A stretch of DNA of 36,127 bases, taken from a virus. The notes under the pieces are model-generated. The model did not search any database and was not told the origin of the DNA. It saw only the letters and a list, made by a program, of their open reading frames with translations. Made by a program: the position numbers and the translations under genes. This document shows, in pieces, positions 24,689 through 25,629 of this stretch. The stretch is taken from the IMG/VR virus record IMGVR_UViG_3300032285_000162, positions 1 to 36,127 of that record, one strand, 5' to 3'. How positions within the stretch are numbered: the first letter of the stretch is position 1; each line of letters opens with the position of its first letter.

Positions 24689-24821
24689 ACAATACTTAGT
24701 TGATTGGTATATTGGTGTAGCAAAAAGGCGTGGCTGGGAAGTCGTGGTTAAACTTTTAAAAGAAAACCCCGAAACCGAAGCGGAAATGAAAATATTAATA
24801 AAGCAAAGACTAGGAAAATGA
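24672..24821 (+). CDS. Small basic/helical protein, TTG start
   Basis: A 49-aa protein that begins at a TTG inside the end of the replication-protein gene. The sequence has W-Y-I-G-V-A-K-R-R-G-W-E-V-V-V-K-L-L-K-E-N-P, a pattern like a small family found in early regions of related phages. Its TGA stop (24819-24821) overlaps the methyltransferase ATG (24818). Terminating ribosomes could therefore restart at either of the two ATGs that follow (24818 and 24822). Confidence 0.5.
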   Translation: MKNNSKQYLVDWYIGVAKRRGWEVVVKLLKENPETEAEMKILIKQRLGK

Positions 24822-25603
24822 ATGAGTTGGCTCTTTTCGCAGGTGCTGGTGGTGGAATACTTGGGGGAAAACTACTTGGATGGAGAACAGTTTGCGCTGT
24901 CGAATGGGAACAATACCCAGCAAGCGTACTTGCTTCAAGGCAAAATGACGGATTACTTGAAAGTTTCCCGATTTGGGATGATGTTCAAACCTTTGACGGA
25001 ACAAGCTGGCAAGGAATTGTTGATGTCATATCAGGCGGCTTTCCATGCCAAGACATATCTGCCGCAGGAAAAGGCGCAGGTATTGAAGGAGAACGATCAG
25101 GAATGTGGAAAGAAATGGCACGGATCATTTACGAAGTTCGACCAAAATTTGTCTTTGTGGAAAACTCACCAATGCTCACTCGTAGAGGATTGGGAACAGT
25201 TCTCGGGGATTTGGCCAAACTCGGGTTCGATGCTGAATGGGGAGTGTTGGGAGCGTCAGATATTGGAGCAAAACACCACCGAAAAAGAATATGGATTGTT
25301 GCCAGACAACGAGAAATTCTTTCATATTCCGACAACGGGAGCAAGCGGTGGAAGCAACAGTCGAAAAGCATTGAAGAAACGGAAAGAAGCAATATGGCCA
25401 ACACCAACAACTCCTTCGGGGGGGGCAATGCTGGCGGTTCGGGAGCGCACAAAAACGCACTCAAAAATGGGACTTACATACCATCTTCAATCAACCCGAA
25501 CCTGTACGAATGGCTGATGGGGTGGCCGCAAGGGTGGACAGACTTAAAGCCATTGGAAACGGACAAGTTCCACAAGTGGCAGCAATTGCATGGGAATTAT
25601 TGA
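24818..25603 (+). CDS. Cytosine-5 DNA methyltransferase, frame broken near its C-terminus
   Basis: Residues 1-200 are a C5-methyltransferase: S-adenosylmethionine motif I (F-A-G-A-G-G-G at 7-13), motif IV with the catalytic Cys (G-G-F-P-C-Q, 73-78), motif VI E-N-S (115-117), and motif VIII R-K-R-I-W-I-V-A (155-162). After the run of eight Gs (25418-25425) this frame no longer encodes methyltransferase motifs; its last 60 codons (Y-E-W-L-M-G-W-P-Q-G-W-T-D-L-K-P) look like the end of the overlapping companion protein. The proper motif IX/X end is one frame away (25426-25629). As read, the enzyme lacks motif X and may be inactive; with one more G or a -1 slip it would be a full-length 270-aa enzyme. 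Confidence 0.8.
   Translation: MNELALFAGAGGGILGGKLLGWRTVCAVEWEQYPASVLASRQNDGLLESFPIWDDVQTFDGTSWQGIVDVISGGFPCQDISAAGKGAGIEGERSGMWKEMARIIYEVRPKFVFVENSPMLTRRGLGTVLGDLAKLGFDAEWGVLGASDIGAKHHRKRIWIVARQREILSYSDNGSKRWKQQSKSIEETERSNMANTNNSFGGGNAGGSGAHKNALKNGTYIPSSINPNLYEWLMGWPQGWTDLKPLETDKFHKWQQLHGNY
24822..25517 (+). CDS. Overlapping companion protein in the +1 frame of the methyltransferase
   Basis: A 231-codon open frame starts 4 nt after the methyltransferase ATG and runs within it. It is not random-looking: from about residue 53 it has M-M-F-K-P-L, F-H-A-K-T-Y-L-P-Q-E-K-A-Q (74-86), E-C-G-K-K-W (94-99), S-L-W-K-T-H-Q-C-S-L (111-120), W-P-N-S-G-S-M-L-N-G-E-C-W (131-143), E-K-E-Y-G-L-L-P (154-161) and W-P-T-P-T-T-P (192-198). 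I recall similar strings in annotated phage proteins of unknown role. After the G8 run the frame drifts off; a -1 shift there continues it to the likely true end at 25603 (about 260 aa). No function known. Confidence 0.5.
   Translation: MSWLFSQVLVVEYLGENYLDGEQFALSNGNNTQQAYLLQGKMTDYLKVSRFGMMFKPLTEQAGKELLMSYQAAFHAKTYLPQEKAQVLKENDQECGKKWHGSFTKFDQNLSLWKTHQCSLVEDWEQFSGIWPNSGSMLNGECWERQILEQNTTEKEYGLLPDNEKFFHIPTTGASGGSNSRKALKKRKEAIWPTPTTPSGGAMLAVRERTKTHSKMGLTYHLQSTRTCTNG
25418..25425 (+). other. Run of eight Gs at which both overlapping frames break
   Basis: CTTC-G8-CAATG. Upstream of it the methyltransferase is read in the frame of 24818 and the companion in that of 24822. Downstream, methyltransferase motif X is in the frame of 25549, and the companion end is in the frame of 24818. 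Both changes equal one missing base or one -1 slip, which points to this site. It may be an assembly error, strain mutation, phase-variable tract or slippery site. Confidence 0.8.
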
Positions 25604-25629
25604 TAGAAAGATTAAATGAGAGAAATTGA
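25426..25629 (+). other. Displaced methyltransferase C-terminus (motifs IX/X)
   Basis: In the frame that includes 25549 the translation reads R-M-A-D-G-V-A-A-R-V-D-R-L-K-A-I-G-N-G-Q, then V-P-Q-V-A-A-I-A-W-E-L-L and stop at 25627-25629. This is the normal C-terminal end of phage C5-methyltransferases, including G-N-G-Q-V-P motif X that completes the cofactor pocket. It has no start of its own and must be reached by frameshifting from 24818. It overlaps the next gene's first 14 nt. Confidence 0.75.

Follow-up and report, generated by a model that had tools for sequence, protein, structure and literature searches.

The gene for the small subunit of the C5-methyltransferase M.EcoHK31I reportedly lies in an alternative reading frame inside the gene for the large subunit, and the small subunit is said to be 176 aa long. 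In the accounts of this enzyme given by two later papers, M.EcoHK31I (YGGCCR) consists of a large polypeptide with motifs I-VIII and X and a small polypeptide with motif IX, and the predicted TRD is assigned to the large subunit (Lee, Kam, and Shaw, 1995, via PMC3404938 and PMC3439449). M.AquI (CYCGRG) is also a split C5-methyltransferase, in which catalysis and recognition are divided between two chains and the small subunit includes motifs IX and X. The phase-variable methyltransferases of Campylobacter, Neisseria, and Helicobacter carry a homopolymer tract in the coding region whose length differs between close relatives. In the open-access literature, no direct description was found of overlapping C5-methyltransferase genes like those analyzed here, or of homopolymer-tract phase variation in phage methyltransferases.

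The DNA analyzed in this study (the window) is a 36,127-nucleotide IMG/VR-type virus record that encodes the terminase, portal, tail, and amidase genes of a tailed phage. It contains two overlapping open reading frames, named alpha and beta, which very probably encode the overprinted subunits of a split phage C5-methyltransferase, with motifs I-VIII and X in alpha and the recognition region and motif IX in beta. A switching role for the homopolymer tracts in the overlap is proposed with less certainty. While a C5-methyltransferase of two polypeptides is already known from M.EcoHK31I, the breadth of the distribution, the near-complete overlap, and the long G/C tracts are new here.

Compared by description, alpha and beta divide the motifs as the two polypeptides of M.EcoHK31I do, and a gene location like that of beta, in an alternative frame within alpha, is also reported for that enzyme. 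However, beta (about 230-340 aa) overlaps alpha almost end to end and starts 4 nt later, it appears to hold the recognition region as well, and the pair is found in phages and prophages, often with long G/C tracts. In contrast to M.AquI, motif X of the window is in alpha, and hence the locus is not of the AquI type. The phase-variable methyltransferases of the three bacterial genera are host genes read in a single frame, whereas here a phage enzyme would have both of its overlapping subunits switched by one tract. An earlier note on this DNA had recognized the overlap, but it missed both the recurring hypervariable G tract and the M.EcoHK31I precedent.

Overlapping reading frames in the window

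The two open reading frames that the earlier note described as a methyltransferase and a +1-frame companion were both found (Table 1). As sequenced, alpha is 261 aa long, with a stop codon at 25601-25603, and it matched PF00145 (E 9e-34, aa 4-187) and phrog_363 (E 2e-59) in profile searches. The motifs I-VIII of a C5-methyltransferase were identified in alpha, including the catalytic PCQ and ENV/ENS, and the residues P76, C77, E115, and N116 were invariant across the alignment of relatives. The recognition domain and motif IX, expected on the same chain as motifs I-VIII, are absent from alpha in relatives and appear only when the alpha/beta pair is taken together. Beta is 231 aa long and occupies the +1 frame, which is open for 231 codons, and the third frame over the pair is full of stops. 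In a profile search, beta matched PHROG 1008, a family labelled DNA methyltransferase (E 7e-15, aa 60-215).

Table 1. Features of the alpha/beta locus, in positions of the window.
Feature	Position	Strand	Basis or remark
Shared start region: AGGA (24812-24815), alpha ATG (24818), beta ATG (24822)	24812..24824	+	Sequence
Alpha as read: C5-cytosine methyltransferase motifs I-VIII	24818..25603	+	PF00145 and phrog_363 matches
Beta as read: putative companion subunit with its N-terminal part and the recognition-domain region	24822..25517	+	phrog_1008; truncated past the G8 tract
Alpha catalytic Pro-Cys-Gln, motif IV	25043..25051	+	Translation; P76 and C77 invariant in alignment
G8 homopolymer tract	25418..25425	+	One base short (-1) of close relatives
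Motif IX-like segment of beta, YEWLMGWPQGW, YEWLMGWPQGWTDL	25505..25537	+	Frame 2 past the tract; phrog_26627 (E 2.5e-13), phrog_1008
Alpha motif X and C-terminus, GNGQVP, RLKAIGNGQVPQVAAIAWELL...	25540..25629	+	Frame 1 past the tract; sequence

The start codons of the window lie within ATGAATG, four bases apart. The same spacing was nearly universal among relatives, as the beta ATG was located at +4 in 202 of 203. The start codon of alpha was ATG, GTG, or TTG in 177 of these relatives, and a Shine-Dalgarno core was identified in 116, with a median spacing of 4 nt from the alpha start and 8 nt from the beta start. We infer that a single ribosome-binding site serves both starts.

Coding evidence for the +1 frame

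Among 127 distinct alpha relatives, the beta frame was without a stop over 570 nt in 125; of the 127, the beta ATG was at +4 in 126, and the +2 frame contained about 11 stops. The relatives share descent, and their contigs are metagenomic. Scattered stops in the +1 frame, named beforehand as the finding that would speak against the overlap, were not observed. The two exceptions with a stop in the beta frame, L070 and L076, both included a G tract just 5' of that stop.

An open +1 frame could also be a non-coding shadow of alpha, kept open by chance through codon usage and conserved only through alpha. The profile search of beta revealed no Pfam or NCBIfam family and the PDB search no relative, as this explanation would predict, but the codons of alpha leave little room for it: synonymous shuffling (196 relatives, 160 codons) predicted about 2.9 stops per gene, and a single stop was observed in all 196 genes together. 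The nearly constant position of the beta ATG also argues against a shadow, as does a beta homologue, gp5 of Mycobacterium phage Catdawg, which is overlapped only in part.

Additionally, the conservation of the two frames was compared by region over identical DNA, using 21 members that are in register and of similar length. Alpha was conserved at 87% in motifs I-VIII, 43% in the linker, and 81% in motif X, and beta was conserved at 71% and 64%, followed by 67% in the recognition region and 75% in the motif IX segment. Within the linker DNA, beta was thus more conserved than alpha (67% versus 43%), while the order was the opposite over the catalytic part. A mere shadow of alpha could not show such an excess, and we consider that explanation extremely improbable.

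The depressed synonymous-site variation that the overlap should impose on alpha was likewise detected. In comparisons of the same genome pairs (10-20% bin), the divergence at 4-fold sites was lower in alpha than in flanking genes (0.219 versus 0.329), and the divergence at first positions was higher (0.116 versus 0.097). The depression at 4-fold sites is genuine and of moderate size, among relatives that are not independent. Judged from these comparisons of sequence, the overlap is real and both frames are under selection. The cost of overprinting appears to be paid by alpha in its linker and by beta in its N-terminal half, and a long, conserved overprinted pair in which the labour is so clearly divided is a good case for examining how two proteins share one DNA.

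Division of motifs and distribution of the pair

In alpha-type genes, the Dcm profile TIGR00675 was matched at its positions 1-161 and, in some genes, also at 278-328. The stretch between 161 and 278, which is the site of the recognition domain and motif IX, was unmatched. Beta contained LLPTP or WPTP strings of variable length followed by a conserved EWLMGWP end. In relatives without a tract, motif IX was in the beta frame and motif X in the alpha frame wherever these motifs were found.

The same two proteins are encoded by gp6 and gp5 of Catdawg with an overlap of only 209 bp, where gp6 includes motifs I-VIII and gp5 includes the recognition region and motifs IX and X. Catdawg gp5 matched phrog_1008 (E 5e-59) and gave a 98% profile match to beta, from which it differs by the short overlap and by the presence of motif X. 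Motif X was also relocated to the beta frame, and absent from alpha, in the relatives L046, L383, and L386, and an AquI-like split is hence present in these three as well as in Catdawg. Wherever motif X is located, the motif set remains complete across the pair, as is predicted for a split enzyme.

The loci L046 (3005-4312), L383, and L386 represent an AquI-like rearrangement that arose inside the alpha/beta family. In L339 and L348, alpha is stopped right after motif VIII, and motif X stays downstream in the alpha frame with no obvious start; these copies may be decayed, or motif X may be translated on its own.

Beta might instead be an independent protein, such as an inhibitor or an anti-restriction factor, that merely shares its DNA with alpha, and indeed no counterpart of its N-terminal half was found among known C5-methyltransferases. 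We regard this as unlikely, since the recognition region and motif IX that are missing from alpha are present in beta, and since motif X may lie in either subunit and yet the set stays complete. The beta profile did not match any member of a set of single-chain C5-methyltransferases, as would be the case if the sequences of recognition domains are not conserved. AlphaFold models of the two subunits, built from 75-row alignments, were poor (pLDDT 48 and 50) and did not confirm a recognition-domain fold for beta. The evidence points to beta as the carrier of what alpha lacks, namely the recognition region and motif IX. Among the roles suggested in the earlier note (inhibitor, partner, or specificity factor), those of partner and specificity factor fit this division best.

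In the proposed mechanism, ribosomes starting at either ATG from one Shine-Dalgarno sequence would produce both chains, which would assemble into the active enzyme. Alpha would provide AdoMet binding and the catalytic Cys, and beta would set the target sequence. As is generally known of phage methyltransferases, the methylation could then shield the phage DNA from host restriction.

The pair was found to be widespread. A scan of GTDB genomes with the beta profile identified 80 loci across many bacterial phyla, which included Pseudomonas, Acinetobacter, Bradyrhizobium, Halomonas, and Chromobacterium, as well as representatives of the Verrucomicrobia, Planctomycetota, Spirochaetia, Nitrospirae, Omnitrophota, and Patescibacteria, among others. 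In these and in eight loci of annotated phages or plasmids, 88 in total, the best open reading frame for beta was always exactly +1 of alpha, and the overlap usually covered nearly all of alpha. The suggestion that the overlap is an old and shared one was thus borne out by both these loci and the relatives with an open frame. An extra scan with the N-terminus of beta identified no additional members of the window clade.

The annotated records that were inspected, from phages, plasmids, and bacteria, name alpha as 'DNA cytosine methyltransferase' and mostly omit beta. Both proteins are annotated in Catdawg and in Arthrobacter phage Chickaboom. The beta proteins matched phrog_1008 in 75 of 75 members. 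The alpha/beta overprinting is, as far as the sequences indicate, old, widespread, and mostly unannotated. Because beta is mostly unannotated, an enzyme cloned on the basis of these records would be missing its recognition part and look dead or orphan.

The +1 frame was also open in other subfamilies, for example in a Desulforhopalus gene (L429) and in Escherichia phage ESSI2 (L403). These frames contain LLPTP-type or WPTP-type recognition strings and have ends that resemble LNPEWVEWLMGFP or LWLMGLP. When E. coli genomes were searched at the DNA level with the gene of ESSI2, two partial relatives were found. In Chickaboom (L407), gp41 and gp42 are adjacent genes, each annotated as a DNA methyltransferase, and they appear to encode this same split enzyme, although the genes as annotated overlap little. 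The families phrog_26627 and phrog_35493 (71 and 68 positions, function unknown) matched the motif IX segment at the C-terminus of beta in 75 of 75 and 66 of 75 members, respectively, and are therefore probably fragments of beta called as separate small genes.

G/C tracts within the overlap

Throughout the 36 kb of the window, the G8 tract is the sole run of at least six G or C, and no A or T run of at least eight is present. Past the tract, frame 2 carries the motif IX-like segment and frame 1 carries motif X, so that both frames are shifted by -1 and the offset between them is equal on either side, as the earlier note had stated. Relatives that are 91-94% identical at the DNA level have one extra base at this site (G9, AG8, or G10), with an alpha of about 270 aa and a beta of about 260 aa. 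In the window copy, alpha runs past the tract into the motif IX segment of beta and ends without motif X, and beta terminates early. Neither subunit is therefore intact, because the tract is -1. The window and L085 (-1), together with L001 and L086 (+2), form one class in which alpha runs into motif IX and motif X is stranded. The G8 tract may result from true slippage or from a sequencing error, which look the same in the sequence, and the window copy would represent an 'off' class unless the latter applies.

The shifted genes might still yield alpha and beta at full length through programmed -1 slippage of the ribosome or of transcription at the tract, given that G8 is slippery in principle and the shift in the window is -1 in both frames. 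This is quite unlikely, as the relatives without a tract are in register (149 of 149) and need no shift, members of class (2,1) would require the opposite shift, and the tract lengths modulo 3 look random within a clade.

Similar tracts recurred among relatives. Runs of at least eight G or C occurred 32 times in 113 kb within these genes, compared to three times in 607 kb of flanking DNA. Counted from the start of alpha, they were located mainly at about 248-255, 491-511, and 597-607, and they included poly-C. Genes were classified as in register when motif IX was in the beta frame and/or motif X was in the alpha frame. By this definition, frame-shifted genes made up none of the 149 without a tract and 20 of the 43 with a tract (Fisher 1e-15; classifiable genes, which share descent). 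Relatives for the analysis of tract phase were collected with N-terminal queries only. In the tract-498 clade, where tracts range from G11 to G15, all three phases were present, and seven phase changes were counted among 15 rows, with no clustering of phase on the tree. An initial impression that this clade is always of class (0,2) was rejected; it reflected query bias, since the alpha frame of the window ends in the shifted frame, and it vanished with the N-terminal queries.

Alternatively, the G8 tract of the window could stem from an error in sequencing or assembly or from a single isolated deletion, with no switch involved and with the tracts of the family acting as neutral Gly-Gly-Gly linkers that encode Gly in both frames. 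The additional base in near relatives fits such an error, the tract near position 600 is mostly in frame (11 of 15 classifiable members), and Gly codons account in part for runs of at least eight G, of which synonymous shuffling predicted 13. However, the same shuffling predicted only 1.2 runs of at least 10, and 34 were observed. The recurrence of tracts at several distinct positions, poly-C among them, the three unclustered phases within one clade, and flanks of the same contigs that are nearly free of such runs also argue against it. We consider this explanation possible but less likely than not, and an error in the window contig itself is still conceivable.

As in known contingency loci, homopolymers of at least eight vary in length among close relatives here, with changes of frame. 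Slippage is the simplest account of the tract lengths, which were read as phase states from assembled contigs in which PCR or sequencing can mis-size long G runs, and homopolymer sizing errors in assembly may add noise. The variation probably represents phase variation of both subunits. In the less certain part of the mechanism, the long G/C tracts would slip at replication, and a single slip would break both subunits because both frames cross the tract. A mixture of on and off states could then hedge between the restriction of unmethylated DNA and methylation-dependent restriction. We tentatively propose, as a reading with somewhat less than even support, a phage contingency switch in which one hypermutable G/C tract toggles both subunits, such tracts arose repeatedly at different sites of the gene, and populations mix methylated and unmethylated genomes to hedge against restriction. 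If the tracts do switch, the modification would be controlled at the level of the population by a switch that the phage itself encodes.

Individual tracts differed in both length and composition. For example, the contigs L017 and L020 show no difference in the first 490 nt of alpha or at any of the 409 4-fold sites compared in flanking genes, and at about 498 nt into alpha they carry G14ACC and G12AC, respectively, in the same phase. In the separate relatives L147, L227, and L222, a poly-C of 11-13 replaces the poly-G at about 491-502 nt into alpha.
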